From: Piscinibacter gummiphilus
GTDB lineage: Bacteria; Pseudomonadota; Gammaproteobacteria; Burkholderiales; Burkholderiaceae_C
DNA length: 64,000 bases
Reading direction: 5' to 3'
NCBI RefSeq assembly: GCF_032681285.1
Contig: NZ_CP136336.1
Location: 2,591,001-2,655,000, forward strand
The notes below the pieces were generated by a model. It made no database searches, was not told where the DNA came from, and saw nothing but the letters and a program-made list of their open reading frames with translations. This document shows positions 32,848-54,489 of this stretch, one piece after another. Position numbers and translations under genes: made by a program. Every line of letters starts with the position of its first letter. Positions within the stretch are counted from its first letter, which is position 1.

Positions 32848-34785
32848 ATGCGCCTGCGGGGGCGCCGCGTGATGGCCGCTGCAACGCTCGGCGACCACGA
32901 CGTCTACCTGTTCCGGGAGGGCACCCACGCCCGCCTGTACGACAAGCTCGGCGGCCGGCTCGACGGCGACGGCGCGCGCTTCGCCGTCTGGGCGCCGAAT
33001 GCGGCCGAGGTCTCCGTCATCGGCGACTGGAACGGCTGGGACCGCAGCATCGACTTCCTCCACCTGCGCCCTGACAGCAGCGGCATCTGGGAGGGCCGGG
33101 TGCCCGCTGCGCGCCACGGCCAGGCCTACAAGTTCCACATCGTCTCGCGCCACGGCGGCTACCGTGTCGACAAGGCCGACCCGTATGCGCTCGTCTCGGA
33201 GCTGCCGCCGGCCACCGCCTCGCGCCTGTGGTCGCTCGACCACGACTGGCAAGACGCCGAATGGATGGCCACCCGTGCCGCCAAAAACGCCCTCGACGCG
33301 CCCGTCAGCATCTACGAGCTGCACCTCGGCTCCTGGCGCCGGCCCGACCCGACGGCGCCGACGCCGTTCTACAACTACCGCGAACTCGCGCACCTCGTGG
33401 CCGACCACGTGAGCGAACTCGGCTTCACCCACGTGGAGCTGATGCCGGTCACCGAGCACCCGTTCTACGGCTCCTGGGGCTACCAGACCACCGGCTACTT
33501 CGCCCCCACCGCGCGTTACGGCACGCCGCAGGATTTCATGTACTTCGTGGACCACCTGCACCAGCGCGGCATTGGCGTGATCCTCGACTGGGTGCCGTCG
33601 CATTTCCCGACCGACGAGCACGGCCTGCAGTACTTCGATGGCACGCACCTCTACGAGCACGCCGACCCGAGGCAGGGCTTCCACCCCGAGTGGAACTCGA
33701 GCATCTTCAACTACGGCCGCAACGAGGTGAGGAGCTTCCTGCTCTCGTCGGCGATGTTCTGGCTCGACCAGTACCACCTCGATGGCCTGCGCGTCGACGC
33801 CGTGGCCTCGATGCTCTACCTCGACTACGCGCGCAAGGCCGGCGAATGGGTGCCCAACGACAACGGCGGGCGCGAGAACTTCGAGGCCATCACCTTCCTG
33901 CGCACGCTCAACGAAGCGGTCTACCGCGAACACCCCGACACGATGAGCGTGGCCGAGGAATCCACCGCCTGGCCGCAGGTCTCGCGGCCCACCTCGGCGG
34001 GTGGCCTCGGCTTCGGCATGAAATGGAACATGGGCTGGATGCACGACACGCTCGCGTTCTTCAAGCTCGACCCCATCCACCGCAAGTACCACCACGGCCA
34101 GCTGACCTTCTCGCTGGTCTACGCCTTCCACGAGAACTTCGTGCTGCCGCTCTCGCACGACGAGGTGGTCTACGGCAAGGGCTCGCTGATCAACAAGATG
34201 CCCGGCGACACCTGGCAGCAGTTCGCCAACCTGCGAGCGCTCTACGGCTACATGTGGACGCACCCGGGCAAGAAGCTGCTCTTCATGGGCGGCGAATTCG
34301 GCCAGCGCCGCGAGTGGACGCACGAAGGCCAGCTCGAATGGTTCGTCACGCAGCAGCCGGAACATGGGGGCCTGATGCGCTACGTGCGCGACCTCAACCG
34401 CCTGCTGCGCGAGCATCCGGCGCTGTACGAGGTCGACTTCTCGCATGAGGGCTTCGAGTGGGCGGTGTCCGATGACGCCGGTGCCAGCGTGCTCGCCTTC
34501 CTGCGCAAGCCGAAGGGGAGGGGCGCCACGCTGCTCGTCGTCTGCAACCTAACGCCGCTGCCGCGCCAGCGCTACCGCATCGGCGTGCCACTGCCGGGCC
34601 ACTGGCGAGAAGTGCTCAACAGCGACGCTGCCGACTACGGCGGCTCGGGCTGGGGCAACCTCGGCGGCGTTGACGCGCAGACCATCCCGTGGCACGGCCG
34701 GCCCTGCTCGGTGAGCCTGACCTTGCCGCCTTTGTCCACCCTCGTGCTGCAGCTGGATGCCCATGGCCCGCGCGAAACTGACTGA
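32848..34785 (+). CDS. glgB: 1,4-alpha-glucan branching enzyme
   Basis: This 645-aa GH13 enzyme makes the alpha-1,6 branches of glycogen. A CBM48 domain with GDWNGWD comes first (about residues 50-130). The catalytic barrel includes YELHLGSWRR, DWVPSHFPTD, DGLRVDAVASMLYLDY (nucleophile Asp), SVAEESTAWP (acid/base Glu) and LPLSHDEVVYGKGSL. It lacks the extra N1 domain of E. coli GlgB, as in shorter GlgB forms. The start is uncertain: ATG 32848 or ATG 32872 (MAAATLGDHDVYLF), the latter closer to related proteins. It overlaps glgE by about 29 bp, opening the operon. Confidence 0.95.
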   Translation: MRLRGRRVMAAATLGDHDVYLFREGTHARLYDKLGGRLDGDGARFAVWAPNAAEVSVIGDWNGWDRSIDFLHLRPDSSGIWEGRVPAARHGQAYKFHIVSRHGGYRVDKADPYALVSELPPATASRLWSLDHDWQDAEWMATRAAKNALDAPVSIYELHLGSWRRPDPTAPTPFYNYRELAHLVADHVSELGFTHVELMPVTEHPFYGSWGYQTTGYFAPTARYGTPQDFMYFVDHLHQRGIGVILDWVPSHFPTDEHGLQYFDGTHLYEHADPRQGFHPEWNSSIFNYGRNEVRSFLLSSAMFWLDQYHLDGLRVDAVASMLYLDYARKAGEWVPNDNGGRENFEAITFLRTLNEAVYREHPDTMSVAEESTAWPQVSRPTSAGGLGFGMKWNMGWMHDTLAFFKLDPIHRKYHHGQLTFSLVYAFHENFVLPLSHDEVVYGKGSLINKMPGDTWQQFANLRALYGYMWTHPGKKLLFMGGEFGQRREWTHEGQLEWFVTQQPEHGGLMRYVRDLNRLLREHPALYEVDFSHEGFEWAVSDDAGASVLAFLRKPKGRGATLLVVCNLTPLPRQRYRIGVPLPGHWREVLNSDAADYGGSGWGNLGGVDAQTIPWHGRPCSVSLTLPPLSTLVLQLDAHGPRETD

Positions 34786-36802
34786 GGCGCCGGAAGGCAT
34801 GCCGCCCGATGGCCGCGTGCGTGCGGTCATCGATGCGGTGCTGCCTTGTGTCGACGGTGGCCGCTTCCCGGCGAAGTGCATCGCCGGCCAGCCTTTCCAC
34901 GTGACCGTGCACGCCTTCACCGATGGCCACGACGCCCTGCGCGTGATGCTGCTGTGGCACCAGGAGGGCCATGCGGTGCAGGAAGTGGAGATGACGCTCA
35001 AGTGGAACGACGAGTGGCATGCGAGCTTCACGCCCTCGGTGCCGGGCCGCTACAACTACGAGGCGGTGGCCTGGGTCGACCACTTCCGCTCGTGGCGCAC
35101 CGAGCTCGCGCGGCGTGTGGACGCCGACGACATCCGCATCGCCGCACTCGTGGGCGCCGAGCTGGTCGATCAGGCGGCCGCGCGCGTGAATCTCTCGAAT
35201 GGCGAAGACCGCGAGGCGCTGCTGCGCTTCTCGGCCGCGCTCAAGAAGCCGGCAAACGAGCCGCATGAGGTCGAGGCGCTGAAGGCCCTGGCGCTCGACC
35301 CGCTGCAGGCCGCGCTGGTCGACCGCTACCCCGATCGCTCGCTGGGCGTGTCGTCCGGCAAGGTGCTGCCGCTGGTGGCCGACCGCGAGCGCGCCGGCTT
35401 CAGCGCCTGGTACGAACTCTTCCCCCGCTCGACGGCAATGGAAGCGGGCGTGCATGGGCGCTTCACTGATGTGGAAAGGCAGCTGCCCCGCATCGCCGAG
35501 ATGGGCTTCGACGTCGTCTACTTCCCGCCCATCCACCCCATCGGCCGCGACAAGCGCAAGGGCAAGAACAACGCACTCACCACCGAGCCGGGCGACGTGG
35601 GCAGCCCGTGGGCCATCGGCGCGGCCGAAGGCGGGCACAAGAGCATCCTGCCGGCGCTCGGCACGCCGGAAGACTTCCGCCGCCTGGTGAAGCGTGCCAG
35701 CGAGCTGGGCCTCGAGATCGCGCTCGACATCGCGATGCAGTGCGCCCCCGATCACCCTTACGTGAAGCAGCACCCGCAGTGGTTCCGCTGGCGGCCCGAC
35801 GGCACGGTGCAGTACGCCGAGAACCCGCCCAAGAAGTACCAGGACATCTACCCCTTCAACTTCGAGACCGAAGACTGGCAGGCGCTGTGGCTCGAACTGA
35901 AGAGCATCTTCGACCACTGGATCGGCGAGGGCGTGCGCATCTTCCGCGTCGACAACCCGCACACCAAGGCCTTCGCGTTCTGGGAGTGGTGCATCGGCGA
36001 GATCCGCAAGCAGCACCCCGATGTGCTCTTCCTCGCCGAGGCCTTCACCCGGCCGAAGGTGATGCACCGGCTGGCGAAGCTCGGCTACAACCAGTCGTAC
36101 ACCTACTTCACCTGGCGCAACACCGCCGAAGAGCTTACCGAGTACTTCACCGAGCTCAGCCAAGGCCCGGGCCGCCACTACTTCCGCCCCAACGCCTGGC
36201 CCAACACGCCCGACATCCTCTCCGAGCACCTGCACGGCCAGGGCCGCCCGGCGTTTGCGATGCGGCTCGTGCTCGCCGCCACGCTGAGCGCGAACTACGG
36301 CGTCTACGGCCCGGCCTACGAGCTGATGGAGAACACCCCGCGCAGCGCCGGCAGCGAGGAGTACCTGCACTCCGAGAAGTACCAGTTGCGCCACTGGGAA
36401 CTGAACCGCCCCGACACCCTGCAGCCGCTGATGACGCGTCTCAACGCCATCCGCCGCGAGAACCGCGCCTTGCAAAGCAACGCCGGCCTGGAGTTCTTCA
36501 CCACCGACAACGAGCAGCTCCTCGCCTACGCCAAGCGCACCCACGACGGCGAGAACCTCATCCTGTGTGTCGTCAACCTCGACGTGCGTTACCCGCAATC
36601 CGGCTGGGTCGAACTCGACCCCACCTGGCTCGGCCTCGCGCAGCCCGGTGATGCCTTCGAACTCGACGACCTGCTCAACCAGCAGAGCTTCATCTGGCGC
36701 GGTGCCCGCAACTTCGTAATCCTGCAGCCCGGCCAGGCCCATGTGATGCGGCTGCGCCGCGGCGTGCGCAACGAGCGTGACTCGGAGTCGTTTCAACGAT
36801 GA
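34757..36802 (+). CDS. glgE: Alpha-1,4-glucan:maltose-1-phosphate maltosyltransferase
   Basis: This 681-aa GH13_3 enzyme extends alpha-1,4-glucans with maltose from maltose-1-phosphate. The N-terminal domain (about 1-200) has [17 protein letters not shown]. Then come [32 protein letters not shown] (a GlgE signature), FRVDNPHTK with the nucleophile Asp and [12 protein letters not shown] with the acid Glu. Length matches Mycobacterium and Streptomyces GlgE. Start ATG 34757 or 34763 lies inside the glgB end. The stop overlaps treS as ATGA. Together with the treS-maltokinase fusion it forms the complete trehalose-to-glucan (GlgE) pathway. Confidence 0.95.
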
Positions 36803-39800
36803 ACGCGCCGCACACACCCCACCTGCGTGCCGCTGAGAAAGGGCCGACCACGCCGGTCACCAATGCCGCGCTCTGGTACCAGGACGCCGTCATCTACCAG
36901 CTCAACGTCAAGGCGTTCGTCGACAGCAACGGCGACGGCGTGGGCGACTTCCAGGGCGTGACCTCGCGGCTCGACTACGTGAAGGACCTGGGCGTCAACA
37001 CCATCTGGCTGATGCCGTTCTACCCGTCGCCGCTGAAGGATGACGGCTACGACATCGCCGACTACCTCGACGTCAACCCGCAGTACGGCACGCTCGACGA
37101 CTTCAAGCAGATGCTCGACGAGGCGCACAAGCGCGACTTGAAGGTCATCACCGAGCTCGTCATCAACCACACGAGCGACCAGCACCCGTGGTTCCAGGCT
37201 GCGCGCAAGGCACCGCCCGGCTCGCCCGAGCGTGACTTCTACGTCTGGAGCGACACCGACGACAAGTACCGCGGCACCCGCATCATCTTCACCGACACCG
37301 AAACGTCGAACTGGACCTGGGACCCGGTCGCCAAGGCCTACTTCTGGCACCGCTTCTTCAGCCACCAGCCCGATCTCAACTTCGACAACCCGCGGGTGCT
37401 CGAGGCCATCTTCAAGGTGATGCGCTTCTGGCTCGACATGGGGGTCGATGGTTTCCGGCTCGATGCGATTCCCTACCTGATCGAGCGCGAAGGCACCAAC
37501 AACGAGAACCTGCCCGAGACGCACGCGATCATCAAGCAGCTGCGGGCGGCCATCGACGCCAACTACCCGAATCGCTTCCTCCTCGCCGAGGCCAACCAGT
37601 GGCCCGAAGACGTGCGCGAGTATTTCGGCGAGGGCGACGAGTGCCACATGGCCTACCACTTCCCGCTGATGCCGCGCATGTACATGGCCATCGCGCAGGA
37701 AGACCGCTACCCGCTCACCGAGATCATGGCGCAGACGCCCGAGATCCCGCAGAGCTGCCAGTGGGCCATCTTCCTGCGCAACCACGACGAGCTCACGCTC
37801 GAGATGGTGACGAGCAAGGAGCGCGACTACATGTACGGCACCTACGCGGCCGACCCACGCGCGCGAATCAACCTCGGCATCAGAAGGCGCCTCGCGCCGC
37901 TGATGGACAACGACATCGACCGCATCAAGCTGATGAACAGCCTGCTGCTGTCGATGCGCGGCTCGCCCATCGTCTATTACGGCGACGAGATCGGCATGGG
38001 CGACAACATCTTCATCGGCGACCGCAACGGCGTGCGCACCCCGATGCAGTGGAGCCCCGACCGCAACGCCGGCTTCTCGCGCGCCGACCCGCAGCGGCTC
38101 TACCTGCCGCCGATCATGGATGCGATCTACGGCTACGAGGCGGTCAACGTCGAGTCGCAACTGCGCGACCCGTCTTCTCTCCTGCACTGGATGCGCCGCA
38201 TGCTCGCGGTGCGCGGCACGAGTCGCGCCTTTGGCCGCGGCGAACTGCTCTTCCTCAAGCCGGGCAACCGCAAGGTGCTCGCGTACCTGCGCACCTTCGA
38301 AGATGAGGTGATCCTCTGCGTGGCCAACATGGCCCGCTCGGCGCAGCCGGCCGAGCTCGACCTCTCGGCCTTCAAGGGCCGCGTGCCCGTCGAGCTGCTC
38401 GGCCGCACCGCCTTCCCGCCCATCGGCGACCTGCCGTACATGCTCACGCTGCCCAAGCACGGCTTCTACTGGTTCGAGCTCAGCACCGATGCGGTCGAGC
38501 CGAGCTGGCACCAGCCCATGCTGCCCGCCGAAGACCGGCCGGTGCTGGTGCTCTTCGACGGCTGGAACAGCATCTTCCGCGACCAGGTGGTGCCGTGGCG
38601 CATCGGCCTGGCGGTGAAGACACGTGCCCAGTTCGAGACCGACACGCTGCCGCGCCACATCGAGCAGCAGCGCTGGTATGGCGCCAAGGGCACGGCCTTG
38701 CAGCGCGCGCGACTCGTCGACCACGCGGTGTGGGGCGATGCCGAGCGCGACGCGCTGGGGCGCTCCGACGGCTGGCTGCTGCCGCTGCTCGAACTCGATG
38801 GCCCCGCCGAGACTTCGACCTACTTCGTGCCGCTGTCGCTCGCCTGGGAAGACGCCAACCAGGAAGGCGACGAAGAGCGCTACCGGATGCTCGGCACCGC
38901 TGCGATTGCCCGAGTGCGCCAGCAGGCGGCCGTGGGCGTGATGGGCGACGCCTTTGCCGACGAGCGCTTCTGCCGCGCCGTGGTCGCGGCCATGGGCCAG
39001 CGCCGCGAACTGCGCACCGCCAACGGCACGCTGCGCTTCCTGCCGACCACCGCCTACACCGAACTCGCCGGTGCCGACTTCTACAAGCTGCCCGTCGGCC
39101 GCCCGCAGGCCGCGAGCAGCAACACCATCGTCACCTTCGGCGAGCGGCTCTTCCTCAAGGGTTACCGCCGTGTGCGGCCCGGCGTGAATCCGGAGTTCGA
39201 GGTCGGGCGCTTCCTCACCGAGGTGGCCAACTTCCCGCACTGCGTGCCGGTCGTCGGCGTGATCGAGTACCGCGGCACCGACGGCGGCCTTATGACGCTC
39301 GGCCTGCTGCAGGCCTATGTGTCGAACCAGGGCGATGGCTGGGCCTACACGCTCGCATACCTGCAGCGTGCGCTCGACATGCAACGCACCCATGGCGCGG
39401 GGCCCGAAGGCTGGTCGGGCGCGCAAGAAGCCCACGGCGCCTACCTCGCGCTTGCCGAGACCCTGGGCCGGCGCACCGGCGAGCTGCACGTGGCCTTCAC
39501 CACGCCCAACGCCGACCCGGCCTTCAAGCCCGAGCCGCTCACCGGGAGTGACGTGGTGGCCTGGCGCGACAAGACGCTGGCCGAGGCGCGGCAGACCTTC
39601 GCGATGCTCGAGCGCGCGCTGCCCCAGCTCGAAGGCGCGACACTGGCCGACGCGAATACCGTGCTGGCCGCACAGCGCAGCCTGCTCGACCTCATCTCGC
39701 AGGCCGCCGCACCCATCGGCCGGGCACTCAAGACGCGCATCCACGGCGACTACCACCTCGCCCAGGTGCTGCTGGTGCGCAACGACTTCGTGGTCATCGA

Positions 39801-40179
39801 CTTCGAAGGCGAACCCGGCCGCAGCTTCGACGAACGCCGCGCCCGCCAGTCGCCGCTGCGCGACGTGGCCGGCATGCTGCGCTCGTTCAGCTACGCCCGT
39901 GCCGGCGGGCTGCGCAGCATCACCGCGTCGGCCGACGAGATGGCGCAGCTGGTGCCGTTCGCGGCGCAGTGGGAGTCGGCCGCGCGTTCCGCCTTCCTTC
40001 GCGGCTACACGGCGGCGGTGCAGGGTGGGGCGCTCTATGAATCCTTCGACTCGCAACGCGGCCTGCTCGCGCTCTTCGAGCTGGAGAAGGCGCTGTACGA
40101 GCTGCGCTACGAACTCAACAACCGGCCCGACTGGGTGGGGATCCCGCTGGCGGGAATCCTGGGGCTCATGCCCCGCTGA
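36799..40179 (+). CDS. treS: Trehalose synthase-maltokinase fusion (TreS-Mak)
   Basis: This 1126-aa bifunctional protein has two parts. Residues about 25-570 are trehalose synthase (GH13_16): [34 protein letters not shown] with the nucleophile Asp, [12 protein letters not shown] with the acid Glu, and [11 protein letters not shown]. It interconverts trehalose and maltose. Residues about 590-1126 are maltokinase (Pep2/Mak): [10 protein letters not shown], then the kinase-like [12 protein letters not shown] and [13 protein letters not shown] metal and catalytic segments. It phosphorylates maltose to the maltose-1-phosphate used by GlgE. TreS-Mak fusions are known in many proteobacteria. Overlap with glgE is 4 bp, keeping donor synthesis and use coupled. 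Confidence 0.95.
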
Positions 40180-40208
40180 TGCCTGACGCACCGGACGGAG
40201 AAACGACC

Positions 40209-40901
40209 ATGGACCGAGTCGACGTGATGCTGGAGCCCGTGCGGGCCTTCCTCGTGCAGGTGGGAGCCTTCCTGCCCAGCCTGGCAGTGGCGATCGTGGT
40301 GCTGCTGGTGGGCTTCCTGCTCGCCAAGGCCGCGCGCTTCGCGGTGCAGCGCGGCCTGCGTGCGATCAACTTCCACATCGTCACCGAGCGCTCGGGGATG
40401 GATGGCTTTCTCCAGCGCGGCGGGACGCAGGCCGACACCGCCGCGGTGCTGGCCGCGCTCGTCTACTGGCTCGTGATCTTCGCGGCGCTCGTGATCGCCT
40501 TCAACGGCATGGGCCTCGCGCACGTGACCGACCTCTTGAGCAAGGTGATGCTCTTCCTGCCCAAGGTGATCGTGGCGGTGCTGATCATCGCCTTCGGCGC
40601 CTACTTCGCGCGCTTCGTCTCCAACGCCGTCGTCACCTACTGCCGCGGCGTGGGCATCCGCGATGCGCAGGCGCTGGGCGTGCTCGCGCGCTACGCCATC
40701 CTCGTCTTCGTCGTGATGATCGCCTTCGATCAGCTCGACATCGGTGGCCACATCATCAGTTGGGCCTTCCTCATCGTGCTCGGCGGCCTCGTGCTCGCGC
40801 TGGCCCTGGCCTTCGGGCTGGGCGGCCAGGGCTGGGCCGCCGCCCACCTCGAACGCTGGTGGCCCGCGCCCAAGGCCGACGACCGCGACGACCTTCCCTA
40901 A
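40209..40901 (+). CDS. MscS-like transmembrane-helix protein (small-conductance channel related)
   Basis: This 230-aa membrane protein has about five helices: LPSLAVAIVVLLVGFLLAKA (residues about 22-41), a pair near 85-102 and 115-140, and a Gly/Ala/Leu-rich final helix (FLIVLGGLVLALALAFGLGG). The VVLLVGFLLAKAARF and FGAYFARFVSNAV repeats match the conserved TM-helix repeat of MscS-family channels. No C-terminal cytoplasmic beta domain follows, so it is a short, possibly truncated-type member. ATG 40209 is used, with ACGGAG upstream, and it lies 29 bp after treS-mak. Its presence inside a trehalose/glycogen operon suggests a link to turgor or osmolyte release (inference). Confidence 0.75.
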   Translation: MDRVDVMLEPVRAFLVQVGAFLPSLAVAIVVLLVGFLLAKAARFAVQRGLRAINFHIVTERSGMDGFLQRGGTQADTAAVLAALVYWLVIFAALVIAFNGMGLAHVTDLLSKVMLFLPKVIVAVLIIAFGAYFARFVSNAVVTYCRGVGIRDAQALGVLARYAILVFVVMIAFDQLDIGGHIISWAFLIVLGGLVLALALAFGLGGQGWAAAHLERWWPAPKADDRDDLP

Positions 40902-40916
40902 GGAGAACCAGAACCC

Positions 40917-43061
40917 ATGGCCCGCGACATGCCCATCACCACCGTCTGGCCGGGCCGGCCGTATCCGCGAGGCGCCACGTGGGACGGCGAAGGCGTGAAC
41001 TTCGCTCTCTACTCCCAGCACGCCGAGAAGGTCGAGCTCGTCTTCTTCGACGAGCGCGGCCGCCGCGAGCGCCAGCGGGTGAGCTTGCGCGAGCGCACCG
41101 ACAACGTCTGGCACTGCTACCTGCCGCAGGCGCGGCCCGGCATGGCCTACGGCTACGTGGTGCACGGCCCCTACAAGCCTGAAGAAGGGCATCGCTTCAA
41201 CCCGCACAAGCTGGTGGCCGACCCCTACGCGCAAGACTTCGTCGGCAAGCTGCGCTGGAGCGATGCGCTCTACGGCTACACCGTCGGCCACCGGCGCGCC
41301 GACCTGTCGTTCGACCGCCGCGAGAGCGCGGCCTACATGCCCAAGTGCCGCATCGTCGACCCGGCCTTCACCTGGGACGGCGACCGCCATCCCCAGGTGC
41401 CCTGGAGCGACACGGTGATCTACGAGACCCACGTGCGCGGCTTCACCATGCGCCACCCCGGCGTGCCCGAGCAGCTGCGTGGCACCTATGCCGGCCTGGC
41501 CAGCGAAGCCTCCATCGACCACCTGCGCCGCCTGGGCGTCACCAGCGTTGAGCTGCTGCCCATCCACTCGTACCTGAACGACCGCCACCTCGACGAGAAA
41601 GGCATGCAGAATTACTGGGGCTACAACAGCTTCGGCTTCTTCGCGCCGGAGCCACGCTATGCCTTCAGCGGCGACCCGGTGCGCGAGTTCAAGAGCATGG
41701 TCAAGGCGCTGCACAGCGCCGGCATCGAGGTGATCCTCGACGTGGTCTACAACCACACCTGCGAGGGCAACCACCTCGGCCCCACGGTCAGCCTGCGCGG
41801 CATCGACAACGCCGTCTACTACGTGCCCGCCGACGACCCGCGCTACTGCGGCGACTACACCGGCTGCGGCAACTCGCTCAACGTGCAGCACCCGCGCGTG
41901 CTGCAGCTGGTGATGGACTCGCTGCGCCACTGGGTGGAAGAGATGCACGTCGACGGCTTCCGCTTCGACCTCGCCACCACGCTCGCACGCGAGAACGGCC
42001 ACGTGGCCCACCGCGGCGCCTTCCTCGCCGCCGTGCGGCAGGACCCGGTGCTCTCGCGCGTGAAGCTCATCGCCGAACCGTGGGACCTGGGCGAAGACGG
42101 CTACCAGGTCGGCCGCTTCCCGCCCGGCTGGGCCGAGTGGAATGACAAGTACCGCGACGGCATGCGCAGCTACTGGAAGGGTGACGGCGGCGTGATCGGC
42201 GAGTTCGCCAAGCGCCTCACCGGCTCGTCCGACCTCTACGGCTATGCGCGCCGCCGCCCCACGGCCAGCGTCAACTTCATCGCCGCGCACGATGGCTTCA
42301 CGCTCAACGACGTGGTCTCCTACAACGACAAGCACAACGAGGCCAACGGCGAAGACAACCGCGACGGCCACAACCACAACCTGTCGTGGAACTGCGGCGT
42401 CGAAGGCCCGACGGACGACCCCGAGGTGCTCGCCCTGCGCGAGCGCCAGAAGCGCAACCTGCTGGCCACGCTCTTCCTCTCCCAAGGCGTGCCCATGCTG
42501 CTGGCGGGCGACGAGATGGGCCGCACGCAAGGCGGCAACAACAACGCCTACGCGCAAGACAACGAGATGAACTGGCTCGACTGGGAGATGACGCCCGAGC
42601 GCGAGGCGCTGCTCGGCTTCACCCGCAAGCTCACGGCGCTCCGGCGCGACCACCCGGCCTTCCGCCGGCGCGACTTCTTTGGCGGGCACGAAGTGGGCGA
42701 GGGATTGAAAGATCTGGTGTGGCTGCGCCCCGATGGCGAGGAGATGACCGAAGCCGAATGGGCCACCGACTTTGCGCGCTGCCTGGGCATGTACCTCCCC
42801 GGCATCGCGCTCACCGGCGACGACCGGCGTGGCCAGCCGCTCTTCGACGACGACTTCCTGCTGCTCTTCAACGCTCATCACGAAGACATGGACTTCCGCA
42901 TTCCGCCGATTGGCAGCGCGGCGTGGCAGGTGGCGATCGACACCTCGGTGGCATCGGGCACGCCCGAGGCCGCCGCACTCGCCCCCGGCGACACCTACAC
43001 GATGAAGTGCCGCGCCATGGCCGTCTTCACGCGGCCCGCGCACGGGCGGGAGGCCTCATGA
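40917..43061 (+). CDS. glgX: Glycogen debranching enzyme (isoamylase type)
   Basis: This 714-aa GH13_11 enzyme hydrolyses alpha-1,6 branches of limit dextrin. The N-terminal CBM48 has YPRGATWDGEGVNFALYS. The catalytic part has DTVIYETHVRGFT, DVVYNHTCEGN, HVDGFRFDLATTL with the nucleophile Asp and LIAEPWDLGEDGYQVG with the acid Glu. The NWNCG-type SWNCGVEGPTDDP and MLLAGDEMGRTQGGNNNAY loops are GlgX/TreX hallmarks. It frees linear maltodextrins for TreY. A strong TAAGGAGAA site precedes the ATG. The stop overlaps treZ by 4 bp. Confidence 0.95.
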   Translation: MARDMPITTVWPGRPYPRGATWDGEGVNFALYSQHAEKVELVFFDERGRRERQRVSLRERTDNVWHCYLPQARPGMAYGYVVHGPYKPEEGHRFNPHKLVADPYAQDFVGKLRWSDALYGYTVGHRRADLSFDRRESAAYMPKCRIVDPAFTWDGDRHPQVPWSDTVIYETHVRGFTMRHPGVPEQLRGTYAGLASEASIDHLRRLGVTSVELLPIHSYLNDRHLDEKGMQNYWGYNSFGFFAPEPRYAFSGDPVREFKSMVKALHSAGIEVILDVVYNHTCEGNHLGPTVSLRGIDNAVYYVPADDPRYCGDYTGCGNSLNVQHPRVLQLVMDSLRHWVEEMHVDGFRFDLATTLARENGHVAHRGAFLAAVRQDPVLSRVKLIAEPWDLGEDGYQVGRFPPGWAEWNDKYRDGMRSYWKGDGGVIGEFAKRLTGSSDLYGYARRRPTASVNFIAAHDGFTLNDVVSYNDKHNEANGEDNRDGHNHNLSWNCGVEGPTDDPEVLALRERQKRNLLATLFLSQGVPMLLAGDEMGRTQGGNNNAYAQDNEMNWLDWEMTPEREALLGFTRKLTALRRDHPAFRRRDFFGGHEVGEGLKDLVWLRPDGEEMTEAEWATDFARCLGMYLPGIALTGDDRRGQPLFDDDFLLLFNAHHEDMDFRIPPIGSAAWQVAIDTSVASGTPEAAALAPGDTYTMKCRAMAVFTRPAHGREAS

Positions 43062-44908: not shown

Positions 44909-47900
44909 TCACCGCCAGGCCGTGGCGCGCTTGTGCGCCGAGCACGGCGTGCTCACCGAGTACCACGACGTGTGGGGCCACCGGCACGAGGCCTCGACCG
45001 AAGCCCTGGTGAAGTTGCTGGCCGAGCTGGGCGTCGACGCCAGCAGCGCCGACGCCGCCGCGGTGGCCGAGCGCGAAGCCCGGGCCGCGCGCGAGCGGGA
45101 GGTGGTGCCGCCCCTGGTGGCGCTCACCGCGGGCAGCAGCGACTGGTCGGTGCCGGTGCGCCTGCCCAAGCCCATGCGCTCGCTGCAGTGGACGCTGATC
45201 GAAGAGGGCGGCCAGGAGCACGCGGGCGAGACGCCGGTCGACGGTGAATCGCGGGACATCCAGCTGCGCATCGCGCGGCCCTTGCCCATGGGCTACCACC
45301 ACCTGCGCCTGGATGGTCTGGGCGAGGTGGTGCAGCTCGTCTCGGCACCAGCCCATTGCTACCAGCCCCCAGCGCTCGCGGACCTGACCGATGCCGACGC
45401 CCCCGGCGCGAGCCGTGGCAACCGCACCTGGGGTCCGGCCGTGCAGCTCTACGCGTTGCGCTCCGAGCGAAACTGGGGCATCGGCGATTTCGGTGACCTC
45501 GCCACCGTCATCGAGCAGTGGAGCCGGCATGGCGCCGGCATCGTCGGCGTGAACCCGCTGCACGCGATGTTCAGCCACAACCCGCTGCACACGAGCCCCT
45601 ACAGCCCATCGTCGAGGCTGCAGCTCAACACGCTCTACCTCGACGTGGAGGCACTGCCCGACCTGCAGGAGTGCGAGCCGGCGCGGCAGTGGATGGCCTC
45701 GCCCGAGGTGCAGTCGCGCCGGGCGGCGCTGCGCGCCGCGCCGAGCGTCGACTACGAGGGCGTGGACCGGCTCAAGACGGAGCTTCTGCGCAAGCTCTAC
45801 CGCAGCTTCCGCCGCCGGCATCTCGCCACGGGCAGCAGCCGCGCCACCGAGTTCCGCCGCTTCCAGGCGGCGCGCTCGCCCGAGCTGCGGCTGCACGCGA
45901 GCTTCGAGGCGCTGCAAGCGCACTTCCACGCGCAAGACAGCCTGGTCTGGGGCTGGCCAGTGTGGCCCGAGGCCTACCGTCAGCCCGGGTCGCCCGAGGT
46001 GCAGCGCTTCATCGCCGAGCATGAAGACGAGGTCGAGTTCCACGAATACCTGCAGTGGCAGGCCGATCTGCAGCTCGCGCGTCTGTCGCGCCGCTGCCGC
46101 GAGCGGGGCATGGCGGTGGGGCTGTACCTCGACCTCGCGGTGTCGGTCGACCGGGCCGGCTCCGATACCTGGGGCCACCAGTCGGCATACGCGAGCGGCG
46201 CCACGGTGGGGGCGCCACCCGACGAAGTCAACCCGAACGGGCAGGGCTGGGGCCTGCCACCGCTCAGGCCCGATGGGCTCAAGCGCGACGTGCGCCTCTT
46301 CGTTGCCACGCTGCGCGCCGCCATGCGCCACGCGGGCGCAGTGCGCATCGACCATGTGATGGGCCTGATGCGCCTGTACTGGATCCCGCCCGGCGCCTCG
46401 GCGCGCGACGGCAGCTACGTGCTGTACCCGCTGCAGGCGCTGCTGGCCATCGTGGCGCTGGAGAGCGAGCGCAACCGCTGCATGGTGATCGGCGAAGACC
46501 TCGGCACCGTGGCCGACGAGATGCGCTCGGCCATGCAGCGGCGCGAGCTGCTGTCGTACCGGCTGCTGTACTTCGAACGCGAGCACGGCGGGGGCTTCAA
46601 GGCGCCCGAGGCGTACCCGCGCAAGTCGCTCGTGGCGGTGAGCACGCATGACCTCGCAACGCTCGCCGGCTGGTGGCGTGGGCACGACCTCGAGGTGCGG
46701 CAGTCGCTCAAGCTCTTCCCCACGCCGCAGATGCACGAGCGGCAGCGCGAGGAGCGTGCCCACGACCGGCTGCGCCTGCTCAACGTGCTGCAGCAGCGCG
46801 GCCTGCTGCCGGCCGAAGGTCACATCGACGCGAGCGGCACGCAGCCCATCGCGCCTGCCGTCTCGGAAGCGGTGCACGCCTATGTGGCCAGCACCCCGGC
46901 GCAGCTGATGATGGTGCAGCTGGAAGACGCGCTTGGCGTGCCCGACCAGGCCAACCTGCCGGGCACGGTCGACGAGCACCCGAACTGGCGGCGCAAGCTG
47001 CCGCTCGGGCTCGAAGCCATGGCGCACAACCCGCGTGTCTCGGCGCTGTGCGCGCGGCTCGCGTCGATCCGCCCATCGCCTGCGCGCACGGCGGCGGCGC
47101 GGCCGCAGGGCAGGGCGGTGGCCGTGATTCCGCGCGCCACCTACCGGCTGCAGCTGCACAAGGACTTCAGCTTCGACGACGCCGTGGCTGCGCTGCCCTA
47201 TCTGGAGCGCCTGGGCGTGAGCCACCTCTACTGCTCGCCGATCTGGCGCGCGCGGCCGGGCAGCCTGCACGGCTACGACGTGGTGGCGCACGACGAGATC
47301 AACCCCGAGCTGGGCGGGCGCGATGGTTTCGAGCGCTTCGCCAACGCCGCGCGCGAGCGTGGCATGGGCCTGATCCTCGACATGGTGCCCAACCACATGG
47401 GCGTGCTCGGCGCCGAGAACCCCTGGTGGACCGACGTGCTCGAGAACGGCCAGGGCTCGGCCTTCGCCCGCCATTTCGACATCGACTGGCATCCCGTCAA
47501 CGCCGATCTCGAAGGCAAGGTCCTGCTGCCCGTGCTGGGTGAGCACTACGGCGACGTGCTGGCTGGCGGCCAGCTGAAGCTCGCCTTCGAGCTCGACCGC
47601 GGCCGCCTGGTGCTGCGCTACTTCGACCACTGCTTCCCGCTCGCCCTGCGCAGCTACGAGCTGCTGCTCACGCATGCCGCCCAGCGCCTGGGCGACGGCC
47701 ATGCGCGAGCGCAGGTCGAGGGCCTGGCCGACTCGTTCGCGGCACTGCCTGCACGCATGGGCTTCGACGCCACCGTGGCCCGCACGCGCGAGGAGCTGAA
47801 ATCGCGCTTCGCCGAGCTGGCCCAGGGCCACGCCGAAGTGGCCGCGGCGGTCGACGCGGCGCTCGCGGCCATCAACGCCGAGGCGAGCCGCGACACGCTG

Positions 47901-49985
47901 CACGCCCTGCACGAGGGCCAGCACTACCGCCTGGCCTACTGGCGCGTGGCGGCCGACGAGATCAACTACCGCCGGTTCTTCGACATCAACGACCTCGCCG
48001 CGCTGCGCATGGAAGAGCCCGCCGTCTTCGAGGCCACCCACTCGATGGCGCTCGACCTCGCGGCGCAAGGCGTGGTCGACGGCCTGCGCATCGACCACCC
48101 CGACGGCTTGCACGACCCGGCGCGCTACTTCGCGCAGCTGCAGCAGGGCTACGCCGAGCGTGCCGGCCTCGCGCTGCCCGCGCCGGCGGAGGGCGAGCGG
48201 CCGGCCCGGCCGCTCTACGTGGTGGCCGAGAAGATCGCTGCCCCTCACGAAGACGTGCCGGAAGAGTGGGCCATCCACGGCACGACCGGCTACCGTTTCG
48301 CGATGGTGGTCAACGGCGTGCTCGTCGACGGCGGCGCCGCCGAGCGCTTCGACCGCATCTGGCAGCGCTTCAGCGGCGAGCGCGAGCCCTTCGCCGAGCT
48401 CGTGTACCGCGGCAAGCGCAGCGTGGCGCGCATTGCGCTCGCCTCCGAGCTGACCGTGCTCGCCACTGCGCTCATGCGCATCGCGCGCGCCGACCGCCGC
48501 ACCCGCGACTACACCTTCAACGCGCTGCGCGATGCGCTGGCCGAGGTGGCGGCGTGCATGCCGGTCTACCGCACCTACATCCTGGGTCGCGCTTCCGCAC
48601 AGGACATCCGCTTCCTCGACTGGGCCATCGCCCACGCCCGCAAGCGCAGCGAGGCACCCGACCGCTCGGTGTTCGACTTCGTCGGCCGCGTGCTGCGCGG
48701 GCAGGGGCCCGACGGTGCGCCGCTGCCGCCCGAGCATGCGGCGTGGCAGTTCGCGGCGCGCTTCCAGCAGTTCTGCGCGCCGGTCGCAGCCAAGGGCGTG
48801 GAAGACACCGCCTTCTACCAGTACCACCGGCTGGTGTCGCAAAACGAGGTGGGCGGCGACCCGGGCCCCTTCGGCATGACGGTGCGTGCCTTCCACGGTG
48901 CCAGCGGCGACCGCGCGGCGCGCTGGCCGCACACCATCCTCGCCACCTCGACGCACGACAACAAGCGCTCGGAAGACGTGCGCAACCGGCTCAACGTGCT
49001 CTCGGAAATGCCGGCCGCGTGGCGGCTCGGCCTGGCGCGCTGGCGCCGGCTCGCGCGCCTGTACAAGACCGAGGTCAATGGCGAGGCCGCACCTTCGCCC
49101 GCCGACGAATACCTGCTCTACCAGACCGTGCTCGGCACGCTGCCCGCGGAAGGGCTCGACGAGCAGTCGCTCGGCGACTACCGCGAGCGCATCGTGCAGT
49201 ACATGCTGAAGGCCGCCCGCGAGGCCAAGCGGCACACGAGCTGGACCACACCCGATGAGGCCTACGAAAACGCGCTCACCGCCTTCGTGCGCAGCCTGCT
49301 GGCGCGTGTCTCGCCCAACCCGCTGCTGGGCGACCTGCAGGCCAACGCCACGGCGCTCGCGTGGTTCGGCGCGCTCAACAGCCTGTCGATGGTGCTGATG
49401 AAGTTCAGCTCGCCTGGTGTGCCCGATGTCTACCAGGGCAACGAGTTGCTCGACCTGAGCCTCGTCGACCCCGACAACCGCCGCCCGGTCGACTTCGCCC
49501 TGCGTGAGCGGCACCTGGCTGCACTGGAGGCGCTGCAGGGCTCGCCCGGCCTTTCAGAACGTCTGCGCGAGCTGGCCGCGCACCCCTTCGACGGACGAGC
49601 CAAGCTGTGGCTCACCTGGCGCTTGCTGCAGCTGCGCGCCGAACGGGAGGCCCTCTTTCGCGATGGGCGCTACGTGCCCCTCGCGGTGACCGGCGCCCGG
49701 CAGGAGCACCTCGTGGCCTACGCCCGCGAGCATGGCAACGAGGTGCTGGTGGTGCTGGCCGCGCGGCTCTTCTCGCGCTTGCAGCCCGAGCCCGGCGCAC
49801 TGCCGCTCGGCGAAGCGGTGTGGGGCGACACCGCCGTCGACCTCACGCCGGTGGCACCAGCCGGTGTGCCCTTGAATGCCACCGATGCGCTCACCGGGCG
49901 CCCGTTCGATCTCTCGCTTCGCCCGCTGCCCGTGGCACGGGCGTTCGCGAGCTTCCCGGCCGTCGCCCTGCGTTTCACCAAGTGA
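44901..49985 (+). CDS. 4-alpha-glucanotransferase / malto-oligosyltrehalose synthase fusion (MalQ-TreY)
   Basis: This single 1694-aa frame holds two enzymes. Residues about 1-735 are MalQ (GH77): NWGIGDFGDL, SPYSPSSRLQLN, VRIDHVMGLMRLYW with the nucleophile Asp, VIGEDLGTVAD with the acid Glu and STHDLATLAGWW. Residues about 745-1694 are TreY (GH13_26): PRATYRLQLHKDFSFDDA, HLYCSPIWRARPGS, LDMVPNHMGV, VDGLRIDHPDGLHDP, YVVAEKIAAPHE and ATSTHDNKRSEDVRNRL. A short Ala/Arg/Pro linker near residue 735-745 joins them. MalQ lengthens or redistributes maltodextrins, TreY isomerises their reducing end into a trehalose unit. It follows treZ with an 8-bp overlap. Confidence 0.93.
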   Translation: MDDHRQAVARLCAEHGVLTEYHDVWGHRHEASTEALVKLLAELGVDASSADAAAVAEREARAAREREVVPPLVALTAGSSDWSVPVRLPKPMRSLQWTLIEEGGQEHAGETPVDGESRDIQLRIARPLPMGYHHLRLDGLGEVVQLVSAPAHCYQPPALADLTDADAPGASRGNRTWGPAVQLYALRSERNWGIGDFGDLATVIEQWSRHGAGIVGVNPLHAMFSHNPLHTSPYSPSSRLQLNTLYLDVEALPDLQECEPARQWMASPEVQSRRAALRAAPSVDYEGVDRLKTELLRKLYRSFRRRHLATGSSRATEFRRFQAARSPELRLHASFEALQAHFHAQDSLVWGWPVWPEAYRQPGSPEVQRFIAEHEDEVEFHEYLQWQADLQLARLSRRCRERGMAVGLYLDLAVSVDRAGSDTWGHQSAYASGATVGAPPDEVNPNGQGWGLPPLRPDGLKRDVRLFVATLRAAMRHAGAVRIDHVMGLMRLYWIPPGASARDGSYVLYPLQALLAIVALESERNRCMVIGEDLGTVADEMRSAMQRRELLSYRLLYFEREHGGGFKAPEAYPRKSLVAVSTHDLATLAGWWRGHDLEVRQSLKLFPTPQMHERQREERAHDRLRLLNVLQQRGLLPAEGHIDASGTQPIAPAVSEAVHAYVASTPAQLMMVQLEDALGVPDQANLPGTVDEHPNWRRKLPLGLEAMAHNPRVSALCARLASIRPSPARTAAARPQGRAVAVIPRATYRLQLHKDFSFDDAVAALPYLERLGVSHLYCSPIWRARPGSLHGYDVVAHDEINPELGGRDGFERFANAARERGMGLILDMVPNHMGVLGAENPWWTDVLENGQGSAFARHFDIDWHPVNADLEGKVLLPVLGEHYGDVLAGGQLKLAFELDRGRLVLRYFDHCFPLALRSYELLLTHAAQRLGDGHARAQVEGLADSFAALPARMGFDATVARTREELKSRFAELAQGHAEVAAAVDAALAAINAEASRDTLHALHEGQHYRLAYWRVAADEINYRRFFDINDLAALRMEEPAVFEATHSMALDLAAQGVVDGLRIDHPDGLHDPARYFAQLQQGYAERAGLALPAPAEGERPARPLYVVAEKIAAPHEDVPEEWAIHGTTGYRFAMVVNGVLVDGGAAERFDRIWQRFSGEREPFAELVYRGKRSVARIALASELTVLATALMRIARADRRTRDYTFNALRDALAEVAACMPVYRTYILGRASAQDIRFLDWAIAHARKRSEAPDRSVFDFVGRVLRGQGPDGAPLPPEHAAWQFAARFQQFCAPVAAKGVEDTAFYQYHRLVSQNEVGGDPGPFGMTVRAFHGASGDRAARWPHTILATSTHDNKRSEDVRNRLNVLSEMPAAWRLGLARWRRLARLYKTEVNGEAAPSPADEYLLYQTVLGTLPAEGLDEQSLGDYRERIVQYMLKAAREAKRHTSWTTPDEAYENALTAFVRSLLARVSPNPLLGDLQANATALAWFGALNSLSMVLMKFSSPGVPDVYQGNELLDLSLVDPDNRRPVDFALRERHLAALEALQGSPGLSERLRELAAHPFDGRAKLWLTWRLLQLRAEREALFRDGRYVPLAVTGARQEHLVAYAREHGNEVLVVLAARLFSRLQPEPGALPLGEAVWGDTAVDLTPVAPAGVPLNATDALTGRPFDLSLRPLPVARAFASFPAVALRFTK

Positions 49986-50396
<411 letters not shown>

Positions 50397-50405: not shown

Positions 50406-50430
50406 GTGACATCGGTCACGCCGATGTCAC
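50406..50430. promoter_or_regulatory. Perfect 10-bp inverted repeat between the two glucan blocks
   Basis: GTGACATCGG (50406-50415) and CCGATGTCAC (50421-50430) are exact inverted repeats with a 5-nt spacer. The element starts 9 bp after the stop of the 103-aa gene and 88 bp before the glycosidase start. There is no T-run, so it is either a Rho-dependent-type end structure or an operator for the glycosidase-glgC-glgA unit. Confidence 0.55.
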
Positions 50431-50517
50431 CGTTTACGCGACGTAACGCCGGCACGTCGGCAGCAGGGCGGCGTCGCTCCCTACACTGCCCCGCATCGTC
50501 TGGATGCAAGGCAGTTC

Positions 50518-51732
50518 ATGAGCAACCACCACGACACCGCGCTGTTGGCCCGCACCTTCTCACACCACGGCACCGACCACGCCACCACGCTGGTCGAGGA
50601 ATGCAGCGCGCGGTCGCTGCAGTTGCTGCGCGACAACCTCACGCCCCAGGGCATCCTCGCCGCGAGCCGCACCGAAGCGGCCGAGGCCCGCAGCTACACC
50701 CGCATCTTCGGCCGCGACGCTGCCATCTGCGTGCTGGCGATGGCCGGCACCGGCGACGAGGCGCTCGAAAACGGGGCCATCGCGAGCATCGAGTCGCTCG
50801 CGCTGCTGCAGGCGCCCAACGGGCAGATCCCGAAATACGTCGACCCCGAAGGTCGCGATGCCGACTTCTGGTACCTGGGCTGCATCGACGCCACGCTCTG
50901 GTGGCTGATCGCCATCGACCACGTGCGCCGCCACAGCCGCATCGGCGGGCTCGACCAGCGCTGGGGCCCGCAGATCGATCGGGCCTTGCACTGGCTGCTG
51001 GCCCAGGAGCACCAGCGCTTCTTCCTTTTGCAGCAAAACGAGGCCAGCGACTGGGCCGACATCATGCCCCGCTCGGGCTTCGTGCTCTACACCAACGCCC
51101 TCTGGTACCGGGTGAAGCTGCTCTACGAACTGCCCAACCTGGAGCAGACGCACTACCACTTCAACCACCTCTTCCACCCGTTCAAGAAAGACCTGCCCGA
51201 GTACCGACGCGGCCGCCTGCTGGGCCACTATGCCCGCCGCGGCCTGCGCGACCCCGGGCTGTACCTGAGCTTCGTGAACCTGTCGTTCGCGGGCGAGGAG
51301 GGCGACGTGTTCGGCAACCTGCTGGCCGTGCTCTACGGCCTGGCCGACGAATCGATGGCGCGCGAGATCATCCAGACCTTCACCGAGGCGCGGGCCTCGG
51401 AGCCGTACCCGATCCGCGTGGTCACGCACCCGATCACCCCCGACGACGAGCTGTGGCGCCAGTACATGAACCGCCACCAGCAGAACCAGCCCCACCAGTA
51501 CCACAACGGCGGCATCTGGCCCTTCGTCGGCGGCTATTGGGCGATGGCCCTGGCGCAGCTCGGCAAGAAAGACGCGGCCCGCCACGAGCTGAGCAAGCTG
51601 GCCCAGGTGTTGGCGCTCGACGACTGGCGTTTCACGGAGTGGTTCCACGGCCGTACGCTCATGCCCATGGGAATGGCGGGGCAGAGCTGGAATGCGGCTA
51701 CGTTCTTGTTGGCGCAAAAAGCCCTCGCCTGA
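50518..51732 (+). CDS. GH100-like / amylo-alpha-1,6-glucosidase-like glycoside hydrolase
   Basis: This 404-aa protein looks like an (alpha/alpha)6-barrel glycosidase. Recognisable segments are [59 protein letters not shown] (candidate catalytic acid in the DWAD) and [13 protein letters not shown]. These fit the alkaline/neutral invertase family GH100 and the related C-terminal domain of archaeal-type debranching enzymes. The substrate could be sucrose or short alpha-glucans; the glgC-glgA neighbours favour a glucan or glucoside. There is no signal peptide, so it should be cytoplasmic. It lies 73 bp before glgC. Exact specificity is unknown. Confidence 0.75.
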
Positions 51733-51781
51733 GCGCCGGCAAATCCTCCCGGAGGCTACGGCACGCGGTTTGCCCCTGTTC

Positions 51782-51791
51782 CGTCATGACG
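51782..51791. promoter_or_regulatory. CGTCATGACG palindrome just upstream of glgC
   Basis: A perfect 10-bp palindrome is flanked by CTGTTC (51776-51781) and GAACAG (51796-51801), giving a dyad that ends 4 bp before the glgC ATG. It overlaps the expected ribosome-binding site, and the visible site (GAGAACAG) is weak. This could hide or expose the glgC start in the mRNA, or bind a protein. The evidence is symmetry and position only. Confidence 0.35.
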
Positions 51792-51805
51792 ACGAGAACA
51801 GACCT

Positions 51806-53032
51806 ATGAAAAACTCCGCCGACAGCGTGCTGGCTTTCGTGATGGCAGGGGGCGAGGGCACGCGGCTGCACGACCTGACGGCCCATCGCTGCAAGCCCGC
51901 GGTGCCCTTCAACGGCAAGCACCGCATCGTCGATTTCGTGTTGAGCAACCTGGTCAACAGCGAGATCTACTCGATCTACTTGCTGGTGCAGTACAAGTCG
52001 CAGGCGCTGATCGAGCACGTGCGGCAAAGCTGGCAACTGGCGCGCTTTCTTCCCGATCACTTCATCACCGTCGTGCCGCCGCAGATGCGCAACGGCCCGG
52101 AGTGGTTCCAGGGCACGGCCGATTCGGTCTACCAGAACCTCCACCTGATGGAGACCTTCAAGCCCGACATCGTGGCCGTCTTCGGCGCCGACCACATCTA
52201 CCGCATGGACGTGCGGCAGATGATCGCCCACCACAAGGCCAACAACGCCGACGTGACGGTGGCCACGCTGCCGGTGCCGCGCGAGCAGAGCCCGAGCTTC
52301 GGCATCGTCGAGACCGACGACAACCTGCGCATCACCGACTTCCAGGAGAAGCCGCAGACCTGCCGCCCCATGCCGGGCAGCAAGACCCACGCACTCGCCT
52401 CGATGGGCAACTACATCTTCAACGCCGACGTGCTGATGAAGGAACTGCAGACCGCGCACGACAAGGGCGAGAGCGACTTCGGCAAGCACATCCTCCCGCG
52501 CCTGATGAAGACGCACAAGCTGATGGCCTACGACTTCGCGACCAATGTCGTGCCGGGGGTGGCCGACTACGAAGAGCAGGCCTACTGGCGCGACGTGGGC
52601 ACGATCGACGCCTACTTCTCGGCGCACTTCGACACCCTGGGCGCCACGCCGCGCTTCAAGATGACCAACCCGGAGTGGCCCATCTATGCCAGCGCCGACC
52701 AGTCGGAGTCGGCCAAGATCGAATGCGGCGTCATCCGCCGCTCGGTGCTCGGCTCGGGCTGCGTCGTCAACGACGCGCACCTCGACCACGTGATGCTGCG
52801 CCGGGCCGTCAGCGTGCAACCCGATGCCGTGCTCGACCACTGCATCGTGATGGACCGCAACGTGATCGGCCGCGGCGCCAAGCTGCGCAACGCCATCGTC
52901 GACCTCGACAACTTCATCCCGCCCGGCGAGAGCATCGGCTACGACCTCGAGCGCGACCGCCAACGCTTCCACGTGAGCGAGAACGGCGTCGTCGTCGTGC
53001 CGCGCGGCCACTTCCCCGCAGCGCATGCATGA
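51806..53032 (+). CDS. glgC: Glucose-1-phosphate adenylyltransferase (ADP-glucose pyrophosphorylase)
   Basis: This 408-aa enzyme makes ADP-glucose, the committed donor of classical glycogen synthesis. The N-terminal nucleotidyltransferase has [20 protein letters not shown] (with catalytic Arg/Lys), FRIVDF-type [21 protein letters not shown] and [11 protein letters not shown] left-handed beta-helix follows from about residue 290 ([13 protein letters not shown] and [13 protein letters not shown]). It is normally controlled by fructose-1,6-bisphosphate or AMP; those sites cannot be judged here. The start [16 protein letters not shown] fits the family. Its stop overlaps glgA as ATGA. Confidence 0.96.
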
Positions 53033-54489
53033 GCGCGCGTGCTGCACTGAAGGTTCTCTTCGTCACTCCTGAATGCGCTCCGTGGGTCAAGACCGGCGGC
53101 CTCGGTGACGTGAGCGCGGCGCTGCCCGCCGCACTGGCCGAACTCGGCCACGACGTGCGGGTGTTGATGCCGGCCTACCGCTCGCTCGCGCAACTGGCGA
53201 AGGAAGGCACGCAGCGCCTCACGCTCCCCGCCGAAGGCGTGTGGCCTGCGGCTGACCTCGTGCGGGTGAATGCGGAAGGCTTCAGCCTATGGCTGCTCGA
53301 CTGCCCGGCGCTCTTCGGCCTGCCCGGGGGCCCCTATGGCGACGAGCAGGGCGTGGACCACGCGAGCAACGCCGAACGTTTCGGCCTGCTGAGCCATGTG
53401 GCCGCGCGCATTGCCTCGGGGGCGTCACCCTGGGCCGACTGGCAGGCCGACGCGCTGCACGCCAACGACTGGCCCACGGGCCTCGCCGCCGCCTACCTGA
53501 GCCGCATGCCCGCACCGCGCGCCCGCAGCCTCTTCACCATCCACAACCTCGCGTTCCAGGGCAACTTCCCGCTCGACCGGCGCGCTGCGCTCGACCTGCC
53601 CGACGAGTGGATGCAGGTCGAAGGCGAGGGCCTCCTGCACTGGGACCGCATCTCGATGATGAAGGCGGCGCTGCGCCACGCCGACGTCATCACCACCGTG
53701 AGCCCGACCTACGCCCGTGAGATCCAGCAGGAGGCCCTCGGCTTCGGCATGGACGGCATGCTGCGAGCACGCAGCGCCAGCCTGCACGGCATCCTCAACG
53801 GCATCGACACCCGTGCGTGGAACCCGGTGAGCGACACGCTGATCCCGGCGCGCTACGGCGCGGGCTGCCTCGACGACAAGGCGGCCAACAAGCGCGCGCT
53901 GCAGGCCGAACTCGGGCTGTCGGTGAAGTCGCGCACGCCGCTCTTTGGCGTGGTGAGCCGCCTGACCGACCAGAAGGGCATCGACCTCATCCTCGACAAC
54001 CTGATGTGGCTCCTCAAGCAGGGCACGCAGCTCGTCGTGCTCGGCAGCGGCGAGCCGCGCTACGAGCAGCGCCTGAACGAGGTGGCGGCCGAGTTCCCGG
54101 CGAGCGTGGCGGTGCGCACCGGCTTCGACGAGCGGCTGGCCCACACTATCGAGGCGGGCGCCGATGTGTTTCTGATGCCCTCGCGCTTCGAACCCTGCGG
54201 GCTCAACCAGATGTACAGCCAGGCCTACGGCACCTTGCCGGTCGTGCGCGCCACGGGAGGTCTTGCCGACTCGGTGCGAGACGCGTCGGAGCCCGACGGC
54301 ACCGGCTTCGTCTTCCAGGAAGACAGCGCCCAGGCCCTGCGCGAGACCCTGGTGCGCGTGCTGCGCCTGTACCAGCAGCCCGCCCTCTGGCGCGGCGTGC
54401 AGCAGCGCGCGATGGCACAGCCTTTCGGCTGGCTGCAGAGTGCGCAACGTTACGCGGCGCTGTATCGCCAGCGCACGCCCGTGGGTTGA
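53029..54489 (+). CDS. glgA: Glycogen synthase (ADP-glucose-dependent, GT5)
   Basis: This 486-aa GT5 enzyme transfers glucose from ADP-glucose to the non-reducing end of alpha-1,4-glucan. The acceptor/donor loop [13 protein letters not shown] appears near residue 20. [51 protein letters not shown] and [18 protein letters not shown] are family marks, the last carrying the catalytic Glu. The start overlaps glgC by 4 bp. With glgB at the cluster's far end the classical route is complete. Confidence 0.96.

Follow-up and report, generated by a model that had tools for sequence, protein, structure and literature searches.

A combined glycogen–trehalose gene cluster in Piscinibacter gummiphilus, a genome with no glycogen phosphorylase match, and its GH100-like candidate hydrolase

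How can a storage glucan be used by a bacterium that encodes two ways of building it and no recognisable glycogen phosphorylase (GlgP)? This question is raised by a stretch of 64,000 nucleotides of Piscinibacter gummiphilus (assembly GCF_032681285.1, contig NZ_CP136336.1, positions 2,591,001 to 2,655,000), hereafter the window, in which a cluster of eleven plus-strand genes (positions 32848-54489, Table 1) combines glycogen and trehalose enzymes with a protein related to glycoside hydrolase family 100 (GH100). An original prediction, made from the sequence alone, had listed these eleven genes; all of them are present, and the identities of the eight Glg, Tre and Mal enzymes are firm according to NCBIfam and Pfam. 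The answer that we favour, and consider rather probable, is that this is a combined glycogen–trehalose locus working without glycogen phosphorylase, in which the GH100-like enzyme is most likely an extra hydrolase.

The cluster contains the complete gene set of the GlgE pathway (TreS, maltokinase, GlgE and GlgB), the genes of the classical pathway (GlgC, GlgB and a GlgA of glycosyltransferase family 5, GT5) and those of the TreX/GlgX-TreY-TreZ route (debranching enzyme, TreY and TreZ). Both glucan-building routes and a glucan-to-trehalose route are encoded together, as had been predicted. The GlgC protein narrowly missed the NCBIfam equivalog model TIGR02091 (416 bits for a cut-off of 425).

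A search of the whole genome (completeness 99.77%) for glycogen or maltodextrin phosphorylase (PF00343) found nothing, while the same search matches 38 of 80 genomes in a set formed by this genome (G000) and 79 relatives. There was also no match in this genome to GH37 trehalase (PF01204), GH65 (PF03632) or GH15 (PF00723), families that were matched in 3, 4 and 9, respectively, of 14 control genomes. Since GlgP, GH65, GH37 and GH15 were all not found, glucose units would have to leave the glucan as trehalose or by hydrolysis. The original prediction had seen neither glycogen phosphorylase nor OtsAB in the window, and had named the presence of glgP/otsAB elsewhere, along with separate promoters, as counter-evidence. 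The absence of PF00343 holds genome-wide, but half of that counter-evidence exists: OtsA is encoded about 230 kb downstream (C1:2874487-2875893) with OtsB beside it, the pair spanning C1 ~2.874-2.877 Mb, so that trehalose does not depend on glucan.

Further GH13 proteins are encoded elsewhere in the genome: two near MalE, MalF and MalK, a TreS-like protein and a second TreZ. One of the two proteins of the maltose-import region is probably an α-glucosidase, its best NCBIfam name being a sub-cut-off "beta-galactosidase BglA"; the other bears an α-amylase domain, and α-glucosidase or amylase activity may be supposed for the pair. With these GH13 proteins and OtsAB, glucose release by hydrolysis and trehalose formation without glucan are both possible in principle. 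A mainly trehalose-bound exit of the stored glucan, as had been suggested, is not shown: MalQ, the two GH13 proteins and perhaps the GH100-like enzyme are other potential sources of free glucose. The second TreZ (L155:2986-4968) adjoins a hybrid histidine kinase, and the list of GH13 proteins shows no recognisable second TreY. The TreS-like protein (L157:2561-4261) lacks a maltokinase part, scores below the TreS cut-off and matches a sucrose-hydrolase C-terminal domain.

The comparison within the genus, represented by 11 genomes, shows that the presence of this cluster and that of GlgP are alternatives. Four genomes have GlgE and the GH100-like protein but no GlgP (G000, G001, G003 and G009), another three combine GlgP with a lack of GlgE (G002, G005 and G008), and four lack GlgE, GlgP and GT5 GlgA, two of the latter being only 87% (G004) and 91% (G007) complete. 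Among the seven glycogen-capable genomes the GlgE cluster and GlgP are thus mutually exclusive (four vs three): two distinct glycogen systems exist in the genus, and no genome seen has both. In the three GlgP genomes there is a classical glgA-glgC-glgP-glgB-glgX locus (L151, L152 and L153), with GlgP between GlgC and GlgB-GlgX; its GlgA and GlgC share only 45-46% and 41% identity, respectively, with their counterparts in the window. The order of all eleven genes is identical in the other three GlgE-positive genus members and partly kept in other families; its conservation in three out of three genus genomes indicates that the arrangement is more than chance. The GH100-like gene also lies behind TreY in G027 and G052, and the place of GlgC among the genes is different in G052, G057 and G073. 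In G009 (L025 and L026) TreS-Mak and MalQ-TreY align piecewise in different frames, so these genes may be broken or misread. The occurrence of either glycogen system in one genus makes their direct comparison possible.

A second line of evidence is the association of the GH100-like protein with GlgE. In the set of 80 genomes GlgE (PF11896) is present in 10, that of the window included, and the GH100-like protein in 7, all of them GlgE-positive (Fisher p 4e-8, with no correction for kinship); this count uses a threshold of E < 1e-100 and leaves out weak matches in G021 and G073 (E ~1e-4). When species genomes were scanned with an alignment of the GH100-like protein, 334 relatives came up, and the loci of the best 80 were fetched with patterns that contained one conserved motif, so that motif counts are biased. 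The fetched stretches of these best 80 loci hold GlgE in 18 cases and TreS-Mak in 23. GlgP and GlgE were searched in the 49 genomes of the first 50 loci, with L053 and L090-L119 (30 of the 80 loci) outside this search, and GlgE was found in 48 of these 49 carriers; the exception, G114, is a 2.8 Mb draft. Taken with the seven carriers above, GlgE accompanies the GH100-like protein in 55/56 carriers (7/7 + 48/49), two genome sets that may overlap. No homologue was found among the viral contigs searched.

GlgE is also more frequent where GlgP is lacking. A strong GT5 GlgA match occurs in 37/80 genomes (weak matches in G034 and G049 left out), and 31 of these have a GlgP match, a count that includes six partial or divergent matches (G057, G058, G059, G062, G063 and G073; E ~1e-15 to 1e-22). 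The six GlgA-positive, GlgP-negative genomes are G000, G001, G003, G009, G026 and G068. GlgE is present in 5 of these 6 and in 4 of the 31 GlgP-positive ones (Fisher p 0.0016), the p value rising to 0.07 when only one GlgE-positive member of the genus is kept.

The GH100-like protein (404 residues) matches the GH100 domain (PF12899) with 53.6 bits for a cut-off of 23.6, only in its C-terminal third (residues 265-402), and a match to the GDE_C domain (PF06202) spans residues 64-396. Its best sequence and fold matches are the alkaline/neutral invertases InvA and InvB of Anabaena, and a glutamate of InvA aligns with its E374 motif. However, the identity to these enzymes is about 20%, the significant sequence match is limited to the C-terminal part and, unlike InvA and InvB, which split sucrose, the GH100-like gene tracks GlgE. 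A search of the literature available here found no paper tying GH100 to GlgE, or GlgE to Variovorax. The protein is a candidate for an extra enzyme of the GlgE/trehalose network, and the cluster points to such a hydrolase as a possible part of the pathway.

The enzymes would work together as follows, their roles being taken from the Pseudomonas aeruginosa study (PMC8084333). GlgC and GlgA would convert ADP-glucose into α-1,4-glucan, to be branched by GlgB. GlgX would release short chains, which MalQ may re-shuffle, and TreY, fused to MalQ, would act with TreZ to turn linear chains into trehalose, for which OtsAB would provide a second entry. TreS-Mak would then convert trehalose into maltose 1-phosphate, spending ATP, and GlgE would return the latter to the glucan. 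The GH100-like hydrolase would cleave glucose off maltose, trehalose or the outer chains of the glucan.

The core of this glucan–trehalose cycle is a new arrangement of known parts, since the cycle is known from P. aeruginosa. Like the window genome, strain PAO1 has GlgA, TreY, TreZ, MalQ and GlgX together with TreS/Pep2, GlgE and GlgB, both glucan routes being joined via trehalose; as described in PMC8084333, its genes lie in two predicted operons with an orphan glgP, and glgC and otsAB are missing. The window genome differs from PAO1 in having one block that includes glgC, no glgP match, otsAB elsewhere, a fusion of MalQ and TreY, and the GH100-like gene. MalQ of P. aeruginosa is able to bypass TreY, TreZ and TreS, and a potentially futile glucan–trehalose cycle is thought by the authors to be limited by the need for GlgP (PMC8084333). 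A natural strain with the whole cycle and no GlgP makes this idea of a GlgP brake testable. In mycobacteria, according to PMC11046441, TreS, maltokinase, GlgE and GlgB likewise build glucan from trehalose and OtsA-OtsB are present, but maltose 1-phosphate is provided by GlgM, a GT4 enzyme, whereas GlgA of the window is of the GT5 glycogen synthase type. Three things go beyond the known cycle: a complete cycle in a genome that has no phosphorylase match anywhere, the either-or distribution within the genus, and the link between the GH100-like protein and GlgE; we do not claim that phosphorylase-free glycogen systems are unreported in bacteria.

A broader proposal can be put forward tentatively, as a possibility: the GlgE/trehalose network of Burkholderiales would regularly include the GH100/GDE_C-like hydrolase as a so far unrecognised enzyme, which in lineages such as Rhizobacter and Aquabacterium lies inside the GlgE cluster of a genome without glycogen phosphorylase. 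In Rhizobacter the single cluster would have replaced the classical phosphorylase-based glg locus, the glucan being used via hydrolysis and trehalose release and not by phosphorolysis. Several observations weigh against the favoured reading of the locus and of its GH100-like protein. Three of the ten GlgE-positive genomes lack it (G026, G057 and G077), GlgP is present in 33 of the 49 carriers, and in 28 of the 49 the stretch fetched around the gene, which covers at most 10 kb on each side and is sometimes ended by the contig, holds no further cluster gene. In addition, 27 of the 49 carriers are Variovorax by title, and the searched genomes do not include non-carriers of the carrier genera. The nearest solved relatives split sucrose, so sucrose could be the substrate, and confidence in the structural model is low around the proposed catalytic loop (residues 174-186). 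What is shown are the gene identities, the missing matches, the association with GlgE and the conserved order; enzyme activities, fluxes and the substrate of the GH100-like protein are inferred. Among the 80 fetched loci, 51 have no other cluster gene in the stretch; in the 50 used for neighbour analysis (L075 left out) no neighbour family, beyond frames overlapping the gene itself, recurs in more than 12 loci within 7 kb on each side. The co-occurrence with GlgP and the stand-alone loci mean that the protein need not belong to glucan breakdown.

These observations have to be set against other accounts of the locus. It could amount to the two P. aeruginosa operons in merged form together with an added glgC, in which the loss of GlgP is incidental, GlgX and MalQ turn over the branched glucan, and the GH100-like protein is an unrelated invertase or glucosidase. 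The PAO1 arrangement of the same enzymes, with glgP as an orphan, agrees with this, as do the findings that P. aeruginosa GlgX, acting alone on rabbit liver glycogen, frees mostly chains of four and that MalQ can feed maltose to TreS/Pep2 (PMC8084333); the many carriers without a neighbouring cluster gene and the invertase structures point the same way. However, the presence of GlgE in nearly all carriers would be unexpected for an unrelated invertase, although shared ancestry may explain part of it, and we regard this account as somewhat unlikely. A mainly one-way store of trehalose, with OtsAB and TreYZ as its sources, GlgE as the enzyme that packs it into glucan, and the branched glucan near a dead end for want of GlgP, would fit the presence of OtsAB, the absence of GlgP, the preference of P. 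aeruginosa GlgX for chains of four glucoses and the proposal of the authors that GlgP is needed in debranching (PMC8084333). Against this, the cluster retains GlgX, MalQ-TreY and TreZ in the genus, which argues for glucan use; a one-way store seems very improbable.

The GH100-like enzyme might instead stand in for GlgP, shortening the outer chains and thereby allowing GlgX to debranch, in a manner comparable to GlgP-less archaea. PMC11046441 (section 3.4.4) describes archaeal strains without GlgP, widespread genes for amylo-1,6-glucosidase (GH133) and a Sulfolobus mutant with excess glycogen, and this enzyme is thought to share in archaeal glycogen breakdown; the archaeal enzyme belongs to GH133, whereas searches by sequence and by fold place the window protein nearest to GH100. 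The GDE_C match, the position of the gene inside the cluster and the lack of GlgP in the window genome and its three kin favour such a substitution. So does gene position: when the 49 loci were assigned by hand to position classes, GlgP was missing in 11/12 carriers whose GH100-like gene is co-directional behind GlgE/TreS-Mak vs 5/37 others, with the matches of G092 and G098 likewise only partial or divergent. With seven more rows (the window, G001, G003, G009, G027, G052 and G073) these figures become 15/18 vs 5/38, and G027, G052 and L068 have both GlgP and the co-directional gene. In a tree of 56 proteins the presence of GlgP switches 7 times, and supported branches force no fewer than 5 of these switches, but the link is not significant once kinship is considered (sign-test median p 0.5, with only 4 or 5 independent contrasts that lie on supported branches). 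Furthermore, G026 is GlgE-positive and GlgP-negative and yet lacks the GH100-like gene. As a general rule, a plain substitute for GlgP was discarded, given the frequency of GlgP among carriers and the outcome of the kinship-aware test, and a stand-in role seems improbable. A combined locus with an extra hydrolase remains the preferred explanation.

Table 1. Genes of the glycogen–trehalose cluster (positions in the window)
Gene or product	Position	Strand	Evidence and remarks
glgB, glycogen branching enzyme	32848..34785	+	PRK05402, 960 bits (cut-off 741); CBM48 and alpha-amylase C domains
glgE, maltose-1-phosphate maltosyltransferase	34757..36802	+	Pfam GlgE_dom_N_S PF11896 (2.5e-44) and GLGE_C PF21702 (2.7e-21), both above cut-off
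treS-mak fusion, trehalose synthase + maltokinase	36799..40179	+	TIGR02456 and TIGR02457; TreS 955 bits (cut-off 678), maltokinase half 443 (375)
Small membrane protein with MscS-type transmembrane helix motif	40179..40901	+	PF05552 only, two stretches
glgX, glycogen debranching enzyme	40917..43061	+	TIGR02100, 1050 bits (cut-off 641)
treZ, maltooligosyltrehalose trehalohydrolase	43073..44908	+	TIGR02402, 709 bits (cut-off 539); start inferred
malQ-treY fusion, 4-alpha-glucanotransferase + maltooligosyltrehalose synthase	44901..49985	+	PRK14507, 2228 bits (cut-off 2148)
103-residue protein	50085..50396	+	No Pfam match; homologues only in genus loci
GH100/GDE_C-like (alpha/alpha)6 hydrolase, 404 residues	50518..51732	+	PF12899 and PF06202 matches
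glgC, ADP-glucose pyrophosphorylase	51692..53032	+	PRK00844 subfamily, 551 bits (cut-off 458); start uncertain, may be near 51806
glgA, GT5 glycogen synthase	53029..54489	+	PRK00654.1-2, 566 bits (cut-off 459)

Several genes overlap according to their coordinates: GlgB/GlgE by 29 bp, GlgE/TreS-Mak by 4, TreS-Mak/membrane protein by 1, TreZ/MalQ-TreY by 8 and GlgC/GlgA by 4. An overlap of 41 bp between the GH100-like gene and GlgC exists only if GlgC starts at 51692, for which the evidence is mixed: the profile match begins at residue 42 and the alignment with G001 at residue 39, but those with G003 and G009 begin at residues 7-9. TreZ most likely starts at the ATG at 43073, its open frame extending back to 42386. 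Between positions 32100 and 51800, no sigma-70-like site was found (1.1 expected) and terminators were near chance (8 vs 7.1 expected), and an Rfam search of 31300-55200 gave nothing at gathering scores.

The product of 40179..40901 had been called MscS-like, a channel name that its matches do not support: the conserved transmembrane helix PF05552 is its sole match at E up to 0.001, and the MscS pore domain is not among the matches. This membrane protein adjoins TreS-Mak in all four GlgE-positive genus members and occurs with TreS-Mak in 20/80 fetched GH100-like loci, some of them without TreY/TreZ in the stretch. The 103-residue protein has copies that are 72-83% identical in G001, G003 and G009 and none in the other loci searched; the gaps flanking a 117-residue form of this small open reading frame are 57 and 121 nt. 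Among the 20 plasmid matches listed, relatives of MalQ-TreY are only ~36-43% identical. The cluster is flanked upstream by tatD and an open frame of 68 residues, and downstream by recQ on the opposite strand. The 68-residue frame (32394-32600, beginning MATPEILSNP) stands alone between tatD and glgB.

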